64,000 bases of DNA. Origin: Streptomyces venezuelae. Lineage in GTDB: Bacteria; Actinomycetota; Actinomycetes; Streptomycetales; Streptomycetaceae. The position numbers and the translations under genes are program-made. The stretch covers positions 434,001 to 498,000 of the forward strand of contig NZ_CP029190.1 of assembly GCF_008642295.1 (NCBI RefSeq), read 5' to 3'. The notes beneath the pieces are model-generated. The model was not told the origin of the DNA. It did no database searches and worked only from the letters and a program-made list of their open reading frames with translations. Shown in pieces: positions 55,539-64,000 of the stretch; the first letter of the stretch is position 1, and each line of letters starts with the position of its first letter.

Positions 55539-56504
55539 TTACTCCGGCGGGAGTTCGGGCGGTACGGCTCCGCGCAGGGCCGCGCCGAAGGCGGCCACGG
55601 CCGGGTGGCCGGCAGCCCCGCTGCGGAACGCGATCCGGGTACGCCGCTGGAGGCGCAGCCGGGTGAGCCGGACGGCCGGGTCCGCCGGGCGGGCGATGCC
55701 CAGCTGCGGCACGAGCGCGACGCCCTGGCCGGCCGCCACCAGGGCGAGGACGGTGGCGAACTCGTCGGCCTGGTGGCGGACCCGCGGGGTGAAGCCGGCC
55801 GCCTGGCAGGCCCGTACGGTCATCGCCCGGCACAGCGTCCCCGGGGTGGCGGTGATCCACGGGGCGTCTTCCCCGCGGCGGAGCACCTCCGCGTCCCGCT
55901 CCTCCTCCTCCGGTGCACCGGGTCCGCCGGCCGGGTCCGCCGGTTCCGCCCGGTCTGCGGGTTCCGCCCGGTCCGCCGGTTCGGCCAGGTACATGGCCTC
56001 GGCGTACAGCGGTTCGGTGGCGAGGCCGGGCTCCGCTGAGGCGGGGACGAAGTCGTAGACGTGGACCAGGGCCACGTCCAGGTCACCGGCCCGCAGGGCG
56101 TGGGCGACGGCCGCCGGGTCGGTCTCGGAGACCATCGGCTCCAGGCCCGGATGACGGCGGGCCAGCGAGACCAGCGCGGCCGGGACGATGGCCCGGGTGG
56201 CGGTCGGGAACGCACCGATCCGCAGGACGCCCGCCAGGCCGACCCGTGCCTCGGCCAGCTCGGCCTCGGCCTGTTCGAGGCGTTCGAGCACGGCTTCGGC
56301 GTGGCGCACCAGGTTCTCGCCGGCCGGGGTGAGCCGGACCCGGCGGCCGGTCCGCTCCAGCAGGGCCAGACCGGCCTCCCGTTCGAGCACTCCCAGTTGC
56401 TGGGAGACGGCCGAAGGGCTGAAGGCGAGGGCCTCGGCGACGGCGGCGATGGTGCCGCGGCGGGCGAGTTCGCGCAGCAGGCGCAGGCGTCGTACGTCGA
56501 GCAT
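55539..56504 (-). CDS. LysR-family transcriptional regulator
   Basis: A 321-residue regulator. The N-terminal winged helix-turn-helix (about 1-60) reads LDVRRLRLLRELARRGTIAAVAEALAFSPSAVSQQLGVLE. The effector domain follows at about 88, with an unusual low-complexity insert of repeated AEPADR units (about 175-190) likely in a surface loop. It diverges from the dihydrodipicolinate-synthase-like gene; a palindrome with the LysR T-N11-A core lies nine bases before its ATG. It probably regulates itself and the divergent gene. Confidence 0.93.
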   Translation of the reverse strand: MLDVRRLRLLRELARRGTIAAVAEALAFSPSAVSQQLGVLEREAGLALLERTGRRVRLTPAGENLVRHAEAVLERLEQAEAELAEARVGLAGVLRIGAFPTATRAIVPAALVSLARRHPGLEPMVSETDPAAVAHALRAGDLDVALVHVYDFVPASAEPGLATEPLYAEAMYLAEPADRAEPADRAEPADPAGGPGAPEEEERDAEVLRRGEDAPWITATPGTLCRAMTVRACQAAGFTPRVRHQADEFATVLALVAAGQGVALVPQLGIARPADPAVRLTRLRLQRRTRIAFRSGAAGHPAVAAFGAALRGAVPPELPPE

Positions 56505-56512
56505 CGGCCCAG

Positions 56513-56529
56513 CTTACGTTTGGCGTAAG
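56513..56529. promoter_or_regulatory. LysR-type binding site CTTACG-N5-CGTAAG
   Basis: Perfect 6-5-6 inverted repeat with the T-N11-A core in the gap between the LysR gene (start 56504) and the dihydrodipicolinate-synthase-like gene (start 56575). Confidence 0.75.
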
Positions 56530-56574
56530 AAATGCGAACTGGATTTGACGGTCAGTGCGGGCGAGGCTCGGTCC

Positions 56575-57486
56575 ATGGCACAGGACACCGCCCTGCGGGG
56601 CATTCACGTACCGCTCGTCACCCCCTTCGATGGCACGGGCGCGGTCGCCGCCGAGGCCCTCGAACAGCTCGCCCGGGACGTACTCGACGCCGGCGCCGCC
56701 GGGATCGTCGCGCTCGGGACCACCGCGGAGGCGGCGGCGCTCGACCCGGCCGAGCGTGACCTCGTCACGGAGGTGTGCGCGCGGGTCTGCGGGGAACGCG
56801 GCGCATGGCTGACCGTCGGCGCCGGGAGCAACGACACCCGGGCGGGCGAGGCGGCACTGGCCCGGCTCGGCGGGCGGCCGGAGGTGCGGGCGGCGCTGGT
56901 GACGGTGCCCTCGTTCATCCGGCCCTCGCCGGCCGGCGTGCTGGCCCACTTCGAGCGGCTGGCATCGGCGAGCCCCGTGCCGCTGATCGTCTATCACATC
57001 CCCTACCGCACCGGTCTGGAACTGGACGCGGCCACCCTGCGGGCACTGGGCACGCTGCCGGGGATCGCCGGGATCAAGTACGCGGGCGGCGGTATCGGCC
57101 CGGAGACGGTGGCCCTGCTCGGGGACCTGCCGGACGGGTTCACGGTGCTGGCCGGCGATGACGCGTACCTGGTGCCGCTGCTGGCCATGGGGGCTTCGGG
57201 CGGCATCCTCGCCTCGGCCCATCTGGCGACCGGGCGGTTCGTGGAGCTGGCCGCCGCCTGGGAGGCGGGCGAGGTGGCGCGGGCCCGGGAGCTGGGGCAT
57301 GCGCTGGCCCGGCTGTCGGCGGCGTCGTTCGCCGAGCCGAACCCGGCCGTGGTGAAGGGGGTGCTGCACGCGCAGGGCCGGATCCCCACGCCCGATGTGC
57401 GGCTGCCGCTGCTGCCCGCCGCGGCGGAGTCGGTGGCGGGGGCGCTGCGGCGACTCGCCGAGCTCGCCCCCGCCGGACGTCTCTGA
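56575..57486 (+). CDS. Dihydrodipicolinate synthase (DapA) family aldolase
   Basis: Class I pyruvate-dependent lyase with a TIM barrel; 303 residues. Lys168 (GIKYAGG) forms the Schiff base and Tyr140 (VYHIPYRTG) is the proton relay. The usual GTTGE is GTTAE. It is controlled by a divergent LysR rather than lying with lysine genes, so it may be a KDG-, hydroxyproline- or sialic-acid-type aldolase instead of the biosynthetic DapA. ATG 56575 fits the N-terminal conservation although the ribosome-binding site is weak. It converges with helR, nine bases apart. Confidence 0.87.
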   Translation: MAQDTALRGIHVPLVTPFDGTGAVAAEALEQLARDVLDAGAAGIVALGTTAEAAALDPAERDLVTEVCARVCGERGAWLTVGAGSNDTRAGEAALARLGGRPEVRAALVTVPSFIRPSPAGVLAHFERLASASPVPLIVYHIPYRTGLELDAATLRALGTLPGIAGIKYAGGGIGPETVALLGDLPDGFTVLAGDDAYLVPLLAMGASGGILASAHLATGRFVELAAAWEAGEVARARELGHALARLSAASFAEPNPAVVKGVLHAQGRIPTPDVRLPLLPAAAESVAGALRRLAELAPAGRL

Positions 57487-57495
57487 TTCCGGTCG

Positions 57496-59661
57496 TCAGG
57501 AGCTCGTGAGGATGACGAGCTGCCGGGTCGCGCGGGTCATCGCGACATAGCGGTCGACGGCTCCCTCCGTGCCCTCGCCGAACCTCTCGGGGTCGATGAG
57601 GACGACCAGGTCGAACTCGAGGCCCTTCGACAGTGTCGGTGTCAGCGACCGCACGCGGGACGACGCCGCCCGGAACGTACCGTCGCCGGTGTCACCGGTG
57701 GCGATGACGCAGGCGGTTCCTTCGGCGTGCGCAGCCAGCCAGGTATCGAGGATCGCGTCCAGGTCCGCCACGGCTCCGTGGACGACGGGAATGCCGCTGC
57801 TGCGGATGGAGGACGGCACATTGGCGTCCGGGAGCGCGGCCCGGATGGCCGGCTCGGCCACCTCCATGACCTCTGCCGGCGTACGGTAGTTGACGGTCAG
57901 GGAGGCCACGGTGATCCGGTCGAGCCCGGCCCGCTCCAGGCGCTCCTGCCAGGACTCCGTGAACCCGTGCCGGGCCTGGGCGCGGTCGCCGACGATGGTG
58001 AAGCTCCGGGACGGGCAGCGGAGCAGCAGCATCTGCCACTCGGCGTCGGTCAGTTCCTGGGCCTCGTCGACGATGATGTGTGCGAACGGGCCGGCGAGCA
58101 GGTCCGGTTCGGCACCGGGGAGCCCGCTCCCGTCGATCAGGGTGTCCTGCAGGTCCCGGCCGCGCAGCATCGTGACCGCGCCTTCACCGTCGTCGTCGGC
58201 CTCCAGCAGGCCGTCGATGACATCGGCCCTGCGCGCGCGTTCGGCGGCGACGGCGGCGTCGTGCCGGCGCTTGCGCACGGACGCCTCCGGGTCGCCGAGC
58301 CGCTGCCGGGCGGCGTCGAGGAGCGGCAGGTCGGACACCGTCCAGGCCTGGGCGTCCGGGCGCTGGAGGGCGCGGACCTCGTCGGGGGTGAGCCCGGGAG
58401 CGCACTTGCGCAGGTAGGCGGGTACCGACCAGAGGTCTCCGACGAGGTCGGTCGGCTCCAGCATCGGCCATGCCCGGTTGAGGGTCCCGATCAGGTCCCG
58501 GTCCTGCAGCAGCGACCGCCGGAGCAGGTGGGGCGGAGCGTCGCTGTCGTCCTTGTCCATCAGGATCGCAAGCAGCTCCTCCAGGATCTGGTCACGGGCC
58601 AGGTTGTGCGGAGTACCTGGTTCCACTGCGGCGAAGGCCGCCGCCCAGTCATCGGCGCCAAGCCAGATGTCGGACCAGTGGCTGGAGACCGTCATCCCCT
58701 CGGTGGGCGGCTCCTCGTAGATTCGGACGGCCGGTTCGATCGCCTTCACCAGGTCCGCGGAGGACTTCAGACGGGCCACCTCCGGATCGGTCTCGACCGT
58801 GGCTGCGGCTCCCTCGGCGACGAGGTCGCGCACGGTGCAGGTCTGTACGCCCTCCTCGCCGAGGCTGGGCAGGACATCGGCCACATAGGCCAGGTAGGGC
58901 CGGCTCGGACCGACGAAGAGCACGCCGCCCCGGCGGTGGCCGAGACGGGGATCCGAGTAGAGGAGGTGGGCGGCCCGGTGCAGGGCGACCACGGTCTTGC
59001 CCGTGCCCGGACCGCCGTCGACAACGAGGGCCCCGCGGGATCCCGCCCGGATGACGGCGTCCTGATCGGCCTGGATGGTGGCGAGTACATCGCGCATCCG
59101 AGCCGACCGGTTGCCGCCCAGACTGGCGATGAACGCGGACTGGTCGTCGAGTGCGGCGTGCCCCTCGAGCCCGTCGGCGGTGAACACCTCGTCCCAGTAG
59201 TCGCTGATCCGGCCGCCGGTCCAGCGGTAGCGGCGGCGGCTCGCCAGGCCCATCGGGCTTGCGTGGGTGGCCGCGAAGAACGGCTCGGCCGCGGCGGACC
59301 GCCAGTCGGTCAGCAGCCGCCGCCCCGTGCTGTCGGTCAGGCCGAGCCGTCCGATGTACACCGGCTCGGGGTCGTCGGTACGGACGAAGTGCCCCAGGCA
59401 CAGGTCCAGGCCGAAGCGGCGCAGGGTGCGCAGTCGGCCGGTCAGGCGGTGGATCTCGGCGTCCCGGTCCATCGCCTGCCGGCCGAGGCCGCCGGGCGCC
59501 CTGCGCGCGGCCTCCAGGAGGTCGGACAGTTCGGTGGTCGCCTGTTCGAGGCTCTCCGAGATGGCTGCGAAATGCCGCTCGTCGGCGGCGGTCAGCGCCG
59601 GGTCGGCCTTGGAGGAAAGGTGCTCGGGAAGGTCGAACGCACTGGACAGCTCAACACGCAA
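57496..59661 (-). CDS. helR: RNA polymerase recycling ATPase HelR (rifamycin protection)
   Basis: HelD-like UvrD-family ATPase of 721 residues. Actinobacterial HelR removes rifamycin-stalled RNA polymerase from DNA and displaces the drug. The N-terminal coiled coil (about 20-85) is the arm that enters the secondary channel. Walker A is GGPGTGKT and motif II is IIVDEAQELTDAEW; NYRTPAEV and VAMTRATRQLVIL mark domain 2B. TTG 59661 is the only start before a late ATG; GGGGG lies nine bases upstream. The identity is strongly supported by a perfect rifamycin-associated element 64 bp before the start. Confidence 0.92.
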   Translation of the reverse strand: MRVELSSAFDLPEHLSSKADPALTAADERHFAAISESLEQATTELSDLLEAARRAPGGLGRQAMDRDAEIHRLTGRLRTLRRFGLDLCLGHFVRTDDPEPVYIGRLGLTDSTGRRLLTDWRSAAAEPFFAATHASPMGLASRRRYRWTGGRISDYWDEVFTADGLEGHAALDDQSAFIASLGGNRSARMRDVLATIQADQDAVIRAGSRGALVVDGGPGTGKTVVALHRAAHLLYSDPRLGHRRGGVLFVGPSRPYLAYVADVLPSLGEEGVQTCTVRDLVAEGAAATVETDPEVARLKSSADLVKAIEPAVRIYEEPPTEGMTVSSHWSDIWLGADDWAAAFAAVEPGTPHNLARDQILEELLAILMDKDDSDAPPHLLRRSLLQDRDLIGTLNRAWPMLEPTDLVGDLWSVPAYLRKCAPGLTPDEVRALQRPDAQAWTVSDLPLLDAARQRLGDPEASVRKRRHDAAVAAERARRADVIDGLLEADDDGEGAVTMLRGRDLQDTLIDGSGLPGAEPDLLAGPFAHIIVDEAQELTDAEWQMLLLRCPSRSFTIVGDRAQARHGFTESWQERLERAGLDRITVASLTVNYRTPAEVMEVAEPAIRAALPDANVPSSIRSSGIPVVHGAVADLDAILDTWLAAHAEGTACVIATGDTGDGTFRAASSRVRSLTPTLSKGLEFDLVVLIDPERFGEGTEGAVDRYVAMTRATRQLVILTSS

Positions 59662-59724
59662 GGTGTGAATCCCCCGTAATTTCTTGCCGGTTCTGGGTCA
59701 GGTCCGCGATTCTGCCCGGCGGAC

Positions 59725-59744
59725 GGGGCCTTGCCGCAAGCCCC
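59725..59744. promoter_or_regulatory. Rifamycin-associated element (RAE)
   Basis: On the minus strand it reads GGGGCTTGCGGCAAGGCCCC, the inverted repeat known from rifamycin-resistance genes of actinobacteria. It lies 64-83 bp before the helR start. TTGCGG within it can be a -35 toward helR (possible -10 CAGAAT, 19-bp spacer), and TTGCCG a -35 in the plus direction. Confidence 0.9.
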
Positions 59745-59759
59745 CCAGTGCGCTATAAG
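59731..59759 (+). promoter_or_regulatory. Strong plus-strand promoter with -35 inside the RAE
   Basis: TTGCCG (59731-59736) and TATAAG (59754-59759) with a 17-bp spacer, directed at the Nudix gene. The expected start is about 59766, immediately before an intrinsic terminator hairpin. Because the -35 lies in the RAE, rifamycin response may extend to this direction. Confidence 0.65.
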
Positions 59760-59767
59760 TTGAGAGT

Positions 59768-59805
59768 GGCAAGGAGTGGGATTCCCTCCTTGCCTTTGTT
59801 TTTTG
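59768..59805 (+). terminator. Intrinsic terminator/attenuator before the Nudix operon
   Basis: GGCAAGGAG (59768-59776) and CTCCTTGCC (59786-59794) pair over 9 bp with a nine-base loop, followed by TTTGTTTTTT. No plus-strand gene precedes it, so it can only stop transcripts from the promoter just upstream, which suggests attenuation or a very short RNA. Confidence 0.75.
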
Positions 59806-59879
59806 CTCGTGTGACCGTGTCAGAACGGGCGCTGTCTGCGTTGGTCCGGTGTCGTCCCGGACCTGTACAGGAGCCGCCC

Positions 59880-60995
59880 GTGCCCGCGCCGCCCGCATCT
59901 CCCTCCCCGCCGGGACAGCCCGGACGGCAGCCCGGACAGCAGCCCACCCCGGAGGAGGTCCGGGCGCACTACGCGGCCCGGCCCTCGCCGCTGGTCGCGG
60001 CGACCGGGATCGTCCTGGACGATGCCGGCCGGGTGCTGCTGCTGACCCCCTCCTACAAGGAGGGGGTGGAGCTGCCCGGCGGCAGCGTGGAGGACACCGA
60101 GACGCCCGAGGAGGGCCTGGCCCGGGAGCTCACGGAGGAACTCGGGCTGGACGTGCCGGTGGGCCGGCTGCTCGCCGTGGACGCGCGGGCGCCGGGCGAG
60201 CTGGGCCGGTCCCTGGTGGTGCACGTCCATCTGGTGGGGCCGCTGACCGCGGAGCAGGCGGCGGCGATCCGCTACGCCAACGGCGAGGTGGCCGAGGCCC
60301 ACTGGCACACCCCGGAGGAGGCCCACCGGCTGCTGCCGGAGCGGATCGCGCCGCGGCTGCGGGCCGGGCTGGCCGCGCTGTACGTGGGCTCGATCGCCCA
60401 TCTGGTCAACGGCGTCCCGCAGCCCGGCTCCCCCGCCGCACTCGACCCCGAGCGGCGGGCCGCGCTGGAGCATGCCAACGCGCTGGACTCGGCCAGCCAC
60501 CGGGCCAACCGGCCGAAGGCGTTCACCGCCGCGCACATGCTGCTCACCGACCGTTCCGGCCGGGTGCTGCTGGTACAGCCCGCCTACGGCGCCGGCGGCC
60601 GGTGGCATCTGCCGGGCGGCGGGGTGGACAGCGACCTCGGGGAGAGCCCGCGCGACGGGGCGCGGCGCGAGGTCTGGGAGGAGCTGGGGCTGGAGGTGGA
60701 GCCCGGCAGGCTGCTGGCCGTCAACTGGGCGAGCCATGCGCCGTATCCGGCCCGGGTGGCGTTCACCTTCGACGGCGGGGTCCTGGACGACAGCACCCTC
60801 GCGCAGATCAAGCTGCCTCCGGAGGAGCTGCGGGAGTGGCGGCTGGCCGGGCAGGAGGAGCTGGGCTCGCTGGTCCGGCCGAAGCTGCGGCGGCGGATCG
60901 AGGCCTGCCTGACCGCGCTCCGGGAGGGCACCGGGCCCCTGGAGCTGCACGCGGGCCGGCCCTGGACCGGCCCCGGCCCGGACCCGGCGCCGTGA
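59880..60995 (+). CDS. Tandem Nudix hydrolase
   Basis: A 371-residue protein with two Nudix domains. Box 1 starts at residue 67 (GGSVEDTETPEEGLARELTEELG) and box 2 at residue 246 (GGGVDSDLGESPRDGARREVWEELG). Both keep the G-x5-E-x7-R-E-U-x-E-E-x-G-U residues, so both halves could hydrolyse nucleoside diphosphate derivatives. GTG 59880 is chosen because AGGAG lies six bases before it. Its stop overlaps the kinase-like gene start (GTGA). The leader contains an intrinsic terminator. Confidence 0.92.
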   Translation: MPAPPASPSPPGQPGRQPGQQPTPEEVRAHYAARPSPLVAATGIVLDDAGRVLLLTPSYKEGVELPGGSVEDTETPEEGLARELTEELGLDVPVGRLLAVDARAPGELGRSLVVHVHLVGPLTAEQAAAIRYANGEVAEAHWHTPEEAHRLLPERIAPRLRAGLAALYVGSIAHLVNGVPQPGSPAALDPERRAALEHANALDSASHRANRPKAFTAAHMLLTDRSGRVLLVQPAYGAGGRWHLPGGGVDSDLGESPRDGARREVWEELGLEVEPGRLLAVNWASHAPYPARVAFTFDGGVLDDSTLAQIKLPPEELREWRLAGQEELGSLVRPKLRRRIEACLTALREGTGPLELHAGRPWTGPGPDPAP

Positions 60996-62041
60996 ACGAA
61001 GGGACGGCCGCACTGCTGGCCCGGGCGTACGGACTGGTCCCGCACACGGTGGAGCCCGGCCCCGCGGGCACCGAAAGCGTCAACCACATCGTCACCGAAG
61101 CGGGCGGAGCACGCTGGTTCGTCAAGGGCCATCCGCCGGGCGCCGATCCGGTGGCCGTGGAACAGGCCCTGGAACTGGGCCGGTTCGCGGGCCGGGCCGG
61201 GGTGCCGGTGCCCGAGGTACGGGAGACCGGGGACGGCCGGCTGCTCGCCCGCGCCCCGGCCGGCGGCAGCCCGGCCGCCGTCTCGGTCTCGGCGTACGTG
61301 GCCGGGGCGGAGACCGCCGAGGGCGGGTTGTACGGGGGCCGCTGGGCCGCCGTCGGCCGGACCCTGGCCCGGCTGCACACGGCGCTGGCCCGGCACCCGG
61401 GCGGCCATGTCCGGCTGGCGCCGTCCACCGTCGTCCACGACCCCGGAGCCCGGCGGGACCGGCTGCGCCGGCTGATCGAGCGGTACGAGGAGCGGCCCCG
61501 CGAGGGCTTCGAGGGGTGGGCGCTGGACGCCGCTCGGGACCGGCTCGCGCTGCTGCCGCGGATCGACGAGCTGGCCGCAGCGCTCCCGGACCGGCTGACC
61601 GTCCAGGCCGTACACGGCGACCTCGCCTCCCCGAACCTGCTGCTGCGCGGGGAACGGGTGGCCGCGGTCATCGACTTCCGGCCGCCCGGCCCGCGGGCGG
61701 CGGTCTGGGAGATCGCCCGGATCGGCTGCGATCCGCGGACGGTGGTGACCCGGGCCGACTGGCCGGCCGGTCTGGCCCGGCTGATCGCCGCCTACCGCGC
61801 GGCCCGCCCCGGCTTTCCGGCGGCCGAACTGGCCGCCGTACCGAGGACCGCGCTGTGCGCCCTGGCCGGCTCCGTGTACCCCCTGAACGAACCGCTGGAC
61901 CACCCGCAGTCCGTCACCCGCTCCCTCCGCACCTACGCCGTGACCCGCGACCGCGCCATCACCCTGCTCCTGGAGCGCCTCCCGGAGGCCGAACGGGCCG
62001 TCGCCGAAGCCCTAAAACATGTCCGCTTTGCTCCGCTATAG
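60992..62041 (+). CDS. Aminoglycoside-phosphotransferase-family kinase
   Basis: A 349-residue APH/choline-kinase-fold protein. The ATP-binding half has ARWFVKGHPPG; the catalytic loop is VHGDLASPN with His208 and Asp210; the metal-binding aspartate is in VIDFRPPGP. Relatives phosphorylate antibiotics, sugars, choline or homoserine. GTG 60992 overlaps the Nudix stop, so both are co-translated. The presence next to HelR raises the idea of drug modification, but this family is broad and not the rifamycin phosphotransferase type. Confidence 0.87.
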   Translation: MNEGTAALLARAYGLVPHTVEPGPAGTESVNHIVTEAGGARWFVKGHPPGADPVAVEQALELGRFAGRAGVPVPEVRETGDGRLLARAPAGGSPAAVSVSAYVAGAETAEGGLYGGRWAAVGRTLARLHTALARHPGGHVRLAPSTVVHDPGARRDRLRRLIERYEERPREGFEGWALDAARDRLALLPRIDELAAALPDRLTVQAVHGDLASPNLLLRGERVAAVIDFRPPGPRAAVWEIARIGCDPRTVVTRADWPAGLARLIAAYRAARPGFPAAELAAVPRTALCALAGSVYPLNEPLDHPQSVTRSLRTYAVTRDRAITLLLERLPEAERAVAEALKHVRFAPL

Positions 62042-62177: not shown

Positions 62178-62918
62178 ATGGCCGGAAAAGGCAAGCACCG
62201 TCGCCCCAAGAACAACCCGCTCACCCGTGGATTCCTTTTCGCGGGGACCGGCGGCGCCGCACTGGTCCTGCCGCTCGTCGGAGCGACCGGGGCGCAGGCC
62301 GCCGCGCCGGCCGCAGTACCTGCCGCAGTACCGGCCGCCGCGCCGGTGAAGGCCCCCGGTACGTACTCCGTGGCGACCGGCGACTCGCTTTCGAAGATCG
62401 CCGCGAAGTACGGGGTGGCCGGGGGCTGGAAGAAGCTCTACGAGGACAACCGCGCGGTGATCGGCAACGACCCGTCGCTGATCCGACCGGGGATCAAGCT
62501 CACCCTCAACGGGGACGGCGGCCGGCCGGCCGCCGAGCCCGCCCGGGCCGCCGCCGAGCCCGCCCGGGCCGACCGGTCCACGCGCACCCCGCTCTACGCG
62601 AACAACCTGGACGGCTGGATCAAGGAATCCCTCGCCATCATGGCCGAAAAGGGCATTCCGGGCACCTATCAGGGCCTTTACAAGAACATCATGCGCGAGT
62701 CCAGCGGCAACCCGCGGGCGATCAACAACTGGGACATCAACGCCAAGAACGGCATCCCCAGCAAGGGGCTGCTCCAGGTCATCGACCCGACCTTCAAGGC
62801 GTACCACGTGCCGGGAACCTCGTTCGACTCCTACGACCCGGTCGCGAACATCACCGCCGCCGCCAACTACGCCGCCGCCCGCTACGGCTCGATCGACAAC
62901 GTGAACGGGCCCTACTAG
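62178..62918 (+). CDS. Secreted LysM-domain transglycosylase-like protein
   Basis: Cell-wall enzyme of 246 residues. After a signal peptide (1-42) and Ala/Pro linker comes one LysM peptidoglycan-binding domain (about 61-113: YSVATGDSLSKIAAKYG). The catalytic part (about 135-240) is of the SLT/resuscitation-factor kind: NIMRESSGNPRAIN with likely catalytic Glu174, then SKGLLQVIDPTF and AAANYAAARYG. ATG 62178 follows GAGGAA by seven bases. The stop shares CTAG with the convergent terD stop. Such enzymes act in spore germination and hyphal growth. Confidence 0.92.
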   Translation: MAGKGKHRRPKNNPLTRGFLFAGTGGAALVLPLVGATGAQAAAPAAVPAAVPAAAPVKAPGTYSVATGDSLSKIAAKYGVAGGWKKLYEDNRAVIGNDPSLIRPGIKLTLNGDGGRPAAEPARAAAEPARADRSTRTPLYANNLDGWIKESLAIMAEKGIPGTYQGLYKNIMRESSGNPRAINNWDINAKNGIPSKGLLQVIDPTFKAYHVPGTSFDSYDPVANITAAANYAAARYGSIDNVNGPY

Positions 62919-63457
62919 ACCGCGCCCATCAGGCGGGTGAACTCCTCCGGGTCCGCGGTGAAGCCGTGGACCGCCGGACGCAGGGTCCACCCGCCGGAGG
63001 CGTCCCGGGCGAATTCGGCGACCGTGGCCGCCGAGGCGTCGGCCACCGACGCGAAGTCGTCGGACACAAGATCGGTGTGGCCCTCCCGGATACGGAGGGC
63101 CGTGCCCGCGACATCACCGAAGGTCTTCGTGCCGTCGCCGCCCTGGATCACCACACCGATCACCACCCGGGCGAGCGCCTCGCTCATCCGGTCCAGTTCC
63201 AGGGTCATCACCTCGTCGAAGCCGAAGCCCTGCCCGGTGCGGCTGTCCCGGTTGAGGGTGATGGTGCCGTCCGGGGACCGGTGGCCGAAGTGCACCAGAT
63301 GGACCGGGGCACCACGGAGGCCGTCCGCGGCGTAGACCGCGGCGACGATATCGAGATCGTTGGCCGGGCTGCCGGCCGGGCTCGGGTCCCATTTCAGTGC
63401 GACCTCGACCTTGGCCAGGCCCTTGCGCACACTGCTTCGGCTGCCGCTACCGCTCAT
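62915..63457 (-). CDS. TerD-family protein
   Basis: Calcium-binding beta-sandwich protein, 180 residues, of the tellurite-resistance/stress family. KVEVALKWDPSP and DLDIVAAVY are the N-terminal marks; NRDSRTGQGFGFDEVMTLELDRM carries the acidic calcium site. Streptomyces encode many TerD paralogues tied to stress and differentiation. The last stop codon interlocks with the LysM gene stop in the shared CTAG. ATG 63457 is preceded by GAGGGGAAG. Confidence 0.93.
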   Translation of the reverse strand: MSGSGSRSSVRKGLAKVEVALKWDPSPAGSPANDLDIVAAVYAADGLRGAPVHLVHFGHRSPDGTITLNRDSRTGQGFGFDEVMTLELDRMSEALARVVIGVVIQGGDGTKTFGDVAGTALRIREGHTDLVSDDFASVADASAATVAEFARDASGGWTLRPAVHGFTADPEEFTRLMGAV

Positions 63458-63489
63458 CGAACTTCCCCTCCTCGACCGGTCGTTCCACC

Positions 63490-64000
63490 CTACTCCCGCT
63501 CGGGGAGCACCACGACGCCGTCCTCGTCCGCGTACACCGTCCCGCCGGGGCGGAAGGTGATGCCGCCGAAGGACACCGGCTCGTCGACGGTGCCCGCGCC
63601 GGTCTTCCCGCTCTTACGGGGGACGGTGCCGAGCGCCAGCACCCCGAGGTCGAGCCCGCCGAGGGCCACGCTGTCCCGGACCGCCCCGTGGACGATCAGC
63701 CCGGCCCAGCCGTTGCGCTGGGCCGCACCCGCGATGAGGTCCCCGACCAGGGCGGTGCGGAGCGAGCCGCCGCCGTCCACGACCAGCACCGCGCCCTCGC
63801 CCGGCGTGTGCAGCAGCTCGCGCAGCAGGGCGTTGTCCTCGTGGCAGGCGACCGTCCGTACCGGCCCGGCGAACATCCGGCGGCCCCCGATCCCGCGGAA
63901 CTGGAGGCCGCAGACCGCCAGCCGCTCGCCGTACTCGTCGTACAGGTCGGCGGTGGGTACCGGCTTGACGGCGGAGGCGGGCGTGGCGGGTGTGGCAGGG
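63490..64000 (-). CDS. RraA/HMG-aldolase family protein, 5' end outside window
   Basis: The frame is open to the right edge with no start codon before it except ATG 63876, which would cut off conserved residues; hence the beginning is missing. About 170 residues are visible, starting near VPTADLYDEYGERLAVC, the family N-terminus. GDLIAGAAQRNGWAG and VRDSVAL carry the substrate and metal-site residues (Arg-Asp), so it may be either an RNase E regulator or a 4-hydroxy-4-methyl-2-oxoglutarate aldolase. Confidence 0.88.
   Translation of the reverse strand, partial: PATPATPASAVKPVPTADLYDEYGERLAVCGLQFRGIGGRRMFAGPVRTVACHEDNALLRELLHTPGEGAVLVVDGGGSLRTALVGDLIAGAAQRNGWAGLIVHGAVRDSVALGGLDLGVLALGTVPRKSGKTGAGTVDEPVSFGGITFRPGGTVYADEDGVVVLPERE

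Follow-up and report, generated by a model that had tools for sequence, protein, structure and literature searches.

The rifamycin-associated element (RAE) is a palindrome found upstream of helR and other rifamycin-resistance genes. How it senses the drug in actinobacteria was called unresolved in the Discussion of a January 2026 paper (PMC12802891), and the mechanism was left open in the accessible text of another study (PMC10719064). The locus analyzed here raises this question in a concrete form, since its RAE carries promoter-like elements on both strands, one of which faces away from helR and runs directly into a terminator-like hairpin. We use ‘the window’ for the whole 64-kb stretch of DNA that was analyzed, ‘sense’ for the direction toward the resistance gene and ‘anti’ for the opposite direction. 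The reading that we favor, at somewhat better than even probability, is a back-to-back dual-promoter rifamycin switch centered on the RAE, which would require an extra element to work.

Promoter-like elements in the RAE upstream of helR

A 15-base RAE query, which we take to identify the element, matched within 59725–59744 with no mismatches, the sole exact match in 64 kb; allowing up to three mismatches gave four matches, not more than expected by chance (mean 5.8). The minus strand from 59744 to 59725 reads GGGGCTTGCGGCAAGGCCCC, and the 19–20-bp RAE palindrome is present on that strand upstream of a rifamycin-resistance gene, helR, which scored above the HelR profile cut-off (Table 1). A head-to-head LysR-type regulator and a dihydrodipicolinate-synthase-like gene adjoin helR (window 55539–57486). 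On the minus strand at 62915–63999, ORFs resembling a TerD-type protein and an RraA-like protein were recognized by eye.

An earlier note on this DNA had described the perfect RAE as bearing −35 elements on both strands, which we confirmed: TTGCCG (+) and TTGCGG (−) share 3 bp within the palindrome. It had further proposed a plus-strand promoter of the form TTGCCG-N17-TATAAG with a start at 59766. A TATAAG at spacer 17 does exist, but across taxa it is TAAGTT, at spacer 19, that is conserved, and the start is, therefore, likelier to be 59768. The putative promoter pair is symmetric about the RAE, with overlapping −35 hexamers, spacers of 19 bp on both sides and predicted starts 66 bp apart. 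A generic consensus scanner returned neither promoter nor terminator within 57000–62000 because its limits (spacer 16–18, loop 3–8) leave no room for spacers of 19 bp or loops of 9 bases.

Table 1 Features of the helR–RAE region in the window, with the evidence for each.
Feature	Position	Strand	Evidence
helR, RNA polymerase recycling ATPase HelR	57496..59661	−	NCBIfam NF041254, 1250 bits (cut-off 750)
helR leader, from predicted start (~59702)	59662..59702	−	equivalents partly conserved in sequence, not in structure
−10 hexamer CAGAAT, putative helR promoter, spacer 19	59709..59714	−	NANNNT at spacer 19 in 156/159 sites
RAE, palindrome with arms GGGG/CCCC flanking TTGCNGCAA	59725..59744		exact query match
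−35-like hexamer TTGCCG, putative anti (dead-end) promoter	59731..59736	+	sequence; core seen in site comparison
−35-like hexamer TTGCGG, putative sense (helR) promoter	59734..59739	−	sequence
−10 hexamer TAAGTT, putative anti promoter, spacer 19	59756..59761	+	TANNNT at spacer 19 in 152/158 gene-oriented sites
Probable anti-transcript start, G59768, 7 nt past the −10	59768	+	GG kept in 99% and 96%, 138 sites
Putative terminator hairpin, 9-bp stem GGCAAGGAG/CTCCTTGCC, from predicted +1	59768..59794	+	folding; stem pairing in other sites
Terminator T tract TTTGTTTTTT	59795..59804	+	sequence; average of 5.2 T over 10 nt behind the stem, 169 sites

Conservation of the geometry across resistance-gene classes

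Searches with RAE patterns gave matches in 33 of 61 genomes comprising the window's own genome and its relatives (reversed control patterns, zero), 209 of 295 genomes of the genus (some 20 reversed-control matches) and 83 of 394 genomes of the class, representing 26 of 137 genera (six reversed-control matches). These patterns miss sites because GGGTC frequently takes the place of GGGGC as the sense-side arm (65 of 138). Many genomes contained more than one RAE site, and one (G204) contained four distinct ones. A subset of the matches, in which 180 loci yielded 176 sites, 164 of them unique, served as the first set.

A homologue of a rifamycin-resistance protein was encoded within 1.5 kb of 163 of the 164 unique sites, as assessed by tblastn with five reference proteins; by class, these were HelR (83), Rox (39), Rgt (23), Rph (9) and Arr (9). 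Three references scored over their cut-offs (HelR, 1250 bits against 750; rifampin monooxygenase, 894 against 800; Arr, 192 against 130). The Rgt reference was best matched by Rgt at 519 of the 800 demanded, and the Rph reference, a fragment, was likewise best matched by Rph below the cut-off. All gene counts come from tblastn; longest-ORF calls took some wrong frames, for example at locus L056.

Orientation by the neighboring gene was possible for all but five of the 164 sites (four implied a gene start more than 400 bases away and one was geneless), and one oriented site had too little flank to be counted on the anti side. Among these sites, which are related by descent and do not count as independent events, the anti strand carried TANNNT exactly 19 bp from TTGCNG in 152 of 158, compared with zero to two sites at each other spacer from 13 to 24 and a local chance of ~0.002 at any one position. 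This spacing was kept in every class (HelR, 75/79; Rox, 38/39; Rgt, 21/22; Rph, 9/9; Arr, 9/9). On the sense strand, 156 of 159 sites had NANNNT at spacer 19; any other spacer accounted for at most three, save spacers 21 and 22 (33 and 34 sites). The sense −10 was CAGAAT or CACAAT in 235 of 279 cases, and both spacer-19 boxes were found across all five gene classes. The base 3′ of the −10 was usually G on the anti side and C on the sense side. Two spacer-19 exceptions, L115 and L117, have both −10 boxes at spacer 18, moved jointly, as though the two sides change together. The anatomy of the putative promoter pair and its conservation are direct readings of these alignments.

A terminator-like hairpin behind the putative anti promoter

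The earlier note had placed a 9-bp hairpin and T tract directly behind the plus-strand promoter, with no gene ahead of the terminator, and both statements hold. The RNA of 59766–59811 (46 nt) folds at −19.5 kcal/mol (z −4.2), a stability equaled by none of 200 shuffles; the TTTTTT at 59799 is the sole run of A or T of at least six in 64 kb; and no gene-like ORF of at least 90 aa lies between promoter and terminator. The note's further suggestion that the plus-strand transcript ends after about 40 bases is supported by the comparison of sites, from which a length of 35–40 bases would be expected.

Other loci were then compared from the predicted +1 onward, using 274 distinct sites (duplicates merged; sites with short flanks or without a rifamycin gene left out). 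A stem with at least eight of nine pairs was present in 169 of them, compared with 1,840 of 5,480 combinations with swapped partners and 487 of 2,740 shuffled ones. The 10 bases 3′ of the stem at these 169 sites contained a mean of 5.2 T versus 2.6 overall, and several stem positions exchange A-T for G-C or C-G for A-T. Arms differing from GGCAAGGAG at three or more places paired with their own partners in 34 of 112 cases, not above the swapped control (890/2,240). In the first set, the stem occurred at 90 of 103 Streptomyces sites and 15 of 54 others. Stem plus at least four T behind it occurred at 74 of 103 and 8 of 54, so the RAE followed by a plus-strand terminator, which the earlier note had suggested looking for in other Streptomyces, is indeed common there. 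None of 15 arr sites had the hairpin. A strict ungapped scan (stem of at least seven, at least five T), which overlooks bulged stems, had hits on 50 of 134 anti sides and 0 of 134 sense sides; the controls gave 0 of 134 for that stretch in the opposite reading direction and 21 of 670 for shuffles. Among the matches listed, the succession of RAE, CGCTATAmGTTGAGAGTGG, hairpin and T tract is found repeatedly, not only at helR but also next to unrelated genes. Judged from these comparisons, the putative promoter pair appears general, and the predicted terminator belongs mainly to Streptomyces, with sporadic cases outside the genus.

Searching by architecture recovers rifamycin-resistance genes

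In a reverse test, we searched with a module pattern made up of the two −10 boxes and the core TTGCNGCAA, without demanding the arms. Matches were obtained in 158 of the 394 genomes of the class and in 49 of the 137 genera, the reversed-pattern control columns were zero, and the window's own genome had a single match. Among the matches listed, 151 were examined, drawn from 30 class-search loci and a scan of public genome contigs. Sixteen of these appeared chance-like: 13 come from records whose titles name other bacteria or archaea, and three, in loci without a shown title, have no arms (GC content 0.33–0.54); none of the 16 had a rifamycin gene. The other 135, 37 of them in loci without a shown title, had a GC content of at least 0.63. 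Titles among the matches listed included Streptomyces, Kitasatospora, Micromonospora, Nocardia and Rhodococcus, as well as Amycolatopsis, Pseudonocardia, Leifsonia, Arthrobacter and Mycolicibacterium.

A helR, rox, rgt, rph or arr gene accompanied 131 of the 135 sites, with the best match always on the sense side (HelR, 67; Rox, 33; Rgt, 14; Rph, 11; Arr, 6). With the eight sites that were already in the first set taken out, the figure is 123 of 127. An extra rifamycin-gene match on the anti side was seen at three sites in two loci (one in L254 and two in L317). L317, an 8-kb locus, has one module for Rgt and another for HelR, on opposite strands. The four sites without a resistance gene comprise two cut by a contig end (L251 and L312), one followed by an efflux transporter (L235) and one in a transposase region (L328), where transposase-like ORFs follow the module in place of a resistance gene. 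In this second set, the GG start was kept in 122 of 135 sites. The anti arm (at least three of four C) was also retained in 132 of 135, even though the pattern did not demand arms, which points to a further DNA-binding factor. As an argument against the model below, such a protein might account for the regulation entirely on its own.

A dual-promoter model and its kinetics

From this anatomy we infer promoter activity, start sites and drug response as follows. The RAE would be the shared center of a dyad-symmetric, back-to-back promoter pair, forming one module of actinobacterial rifamycin-resistance genes. The sense promoter (19-bp spacer, CAGAAT) would be directed at helR and the anti promoter (19-bp spacer, TANNNT, purine-rich discriminator, GG start) away from it, the latter yielding a dead-end RNA of ~35 nt that, at most Streptomyces sites, would consist only of the terminator hairpin and U tract. 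Overlap of the −35 hexamers would leave room for a single RNA polymerase. In the absence of drug, most initiations would go to the anti promoter, which has the better −10, and sense expression would be low; rifamycin would tilt the site toward the sense promoter. The terminator would shield the upstream gene, whichever it is, from the idle transcript.

Competition alone does not account for such a flip. In a kinetic model in which polymerase, drug-bound or free, enters a shared site either way, the largest induction over 200,000 random parameter sets and seven doses was 1.0, and on this ground simple competition between the two orientations was rejected as the sensing mechanism. A further element would, therefore, be needed, which may be a protein reading the GGGG/CCCC arms or cooperative feedback from firing of the anti promoter; in the model, feedback with a Hill coefficient of 1 gave no induction, whereas coefficients of 2 or 4 can give it. 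For a convergent layout, 6,089 of 50,000 parameter sets exceeded fivefold induction. We prefer the dual-promoter switch with an extra element because the shared-site model never induces, while cooperative repression or a convergent layout can. A broader version, held more tentatively and at clearly less than even confidence, is that actinobacteria in general may use the RAE to sense the state of their RNA polymerase: the symmetric, two-way promoter would idle on a dead-end 35-nt RNA and, once rifamycin traps the polymerase, reverse direction and switch on the resistance gene. If true, this sensor design would be independent of the convergent alarm of Bacillus subtilis, with promoter geometry itself helping to detect an antibiotic.

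Alternative explanations

The main rival, which we regard as rather unlikely, takes the RAE as an operator for a rifamycin-responsive regulator that covers both −35 hexamers, with sense control by protein only. The anti promoter would then arise only as a side effect of the site's symmetry, and the terminator would do no more than insulate the upstream gene. The arms, GGG[T/C]C..GCCCC, for which RNA polymerase by itself should have no use, are kept without being required, and a factor of this kind is named as a possibility in the accessible text of PMC12802891 and PMC10719064. Without a function, the anti promoter would be expected to degenerate; its −10, however, stands at exactly 19 bp almost throughout, and the GG start is kept too. 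An arrangement like that of B. subtilis, in which a drug-induced sense promoter further upstream converges with the anti promoter and anti firing causes collisions, appears improbable. In its favor, the sense promoter P1 of M. smegmatis starts ~20 bp upstream of the RAE (PMC10719064, accessible text), and the convergent layout induced strongly in the kinetic model; against this, no conserved sense promoter was seen by eye upstream of the RAE at Streptomyces sites, and P1 and the anti promoter would overlap by position.

Two further possibilities concern the hairpin RNA and the genes beyond it. The earlier note's idea of a functional short RNA is backed by stem changes that are compensatory in the common hairpin type, but the absence of the hairpin at arr sites and the lack of excess leader pairing weaken it. 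The predicted pairing of anti RNA with its own sense leader (−25.8 kcal/mol) did not exceed that of swapped (−26.2 kcal/mol) or shuffled (−27.0 kcal/mol) combinations, and pairing of this kind was rejected as the mode of regulation. For the window at 59600–59900, Rfam returned only a 14-bit match to OxyS (gathering score 75); with no Rfam family, a riboswitch or known regulatory RNA was rejected as well. A 35-nt hairpin RNA that acts in trans, its loss under rifamycin derepressing resistance genes, could draw on the compensatory changes and on the inducibility of the shared-site model under cooperative feedback, but these pairing, arr and Rfam results make it very improbable, and a sequence-specific role of the short RNA is unlikely. 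Least credible is a conditional terminator through which the drug would control transcription of the Nudix and kinase genes, which do lie downstream of it in the same direction. This read-through under stress, proposed in the earlier note, is not supported by tblastn against 329 fetched loci (some with short flanks), in which either protein was matched only in the window's own genome. The longest anti-side ORFs are mostly unrelated between sites (largest cluster, 4 of 164), in contrast to sense-side genes, which form a few large families. Read-through control of the two genes was rejected for the absent conservation of both genes and of anti-side neighbors.

A structured sense leader was also considered and rejected, as no RNA structure was detected in the sense leaders (median z 0.46). 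The ~30 bases past the sense −10 (CGGCCGAAGCCAGGACCTGCGGAAA) are partly conserved ahead of non-homologous rifamycin genes.

Relationship to known systems

The closest described system is that of B. subtilis helD and pps, for which the accessible text of PMC12802891 reports an antisense promoter with a 19-bp spacer. There, helD is held down by this strong antisense promoter, rifampicin stops the antisense promoter, the short antisense RNA ends at a putative intrinsic terminator and mutation of the antisense −10 renders helD constitutive. The RAE module resembles it in gene class, in the 19-bp spacer of the anti promoter and, by sequence, in a predicted anti RNA ending at a near intrinsic terminator in the window, at most other Streptomyces sites and at a minority of sites elsewhere. 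It differs in layout: both conserved elements stand back to back around the RAE with overlapping −35 hexamers, whereas the B. subtilis promoters converge, their starts lying 39 bp from each other. Convergence is essential to the B. subtilis mechanism, which counts against its transfer to a back-to-back layout with shared −35 sequences, and its authors set the RAE genes of actinobacteria apart as a problem still to be solved (PMC12802891). The dual-promoter module is, by this comparison, most likely related to, yet different from, the convergent pair of B. subtilis helD.

In mycobacteria, according to the accessible text of PMC10719064, one sense start is located ~20 bp upstream of the RAE, and the −35 of a second promoter, P2, overlaps the element, as the sense −35 does here; deletion of half the RAE abolished induction. 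The tandem rpoBC promoters of M. smegmatis are similar in that the drug shifts use between two promoters but differ in that both serve one operon, the first interfering with the second, and are not back to back (PMC10719064). Unlike our reading, literature accounts, in the text accessible to us, treat the actinobacterial RAE as a palindrome, a 5′ untranslated region element or a putative factor site. An opposite promoter, 19/19 spacing or a dead-end terminated transcript at the RAE found no mention in the accessible parts of the open-access literature searched, a corpus separate from the original RAE and HelR papers. Likewise, an anti promoter at the RAE is not mentioned in the accessible text of PMC8655204, PMC11077062 and PMC12709188.

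The comparison supplies a testable anatomy of two −10 boxes at near-invariant 19-bp spacing, overlapping −35 hexamers, arms suggestive of a binding factor and a predicted dead-end transcript, and inactivation of the anti −10 alone would separate the main mechanisms. The module pattern is also sharper than the RAE letters alone for finding rifamycin-response genes. An example is provided by Actinoplanes aureus, in which a complete module is followed by a DHA2-type MFS efflux transporter (L235:229–1794, plus strand), a candidate rifamycin-response efflux gene.
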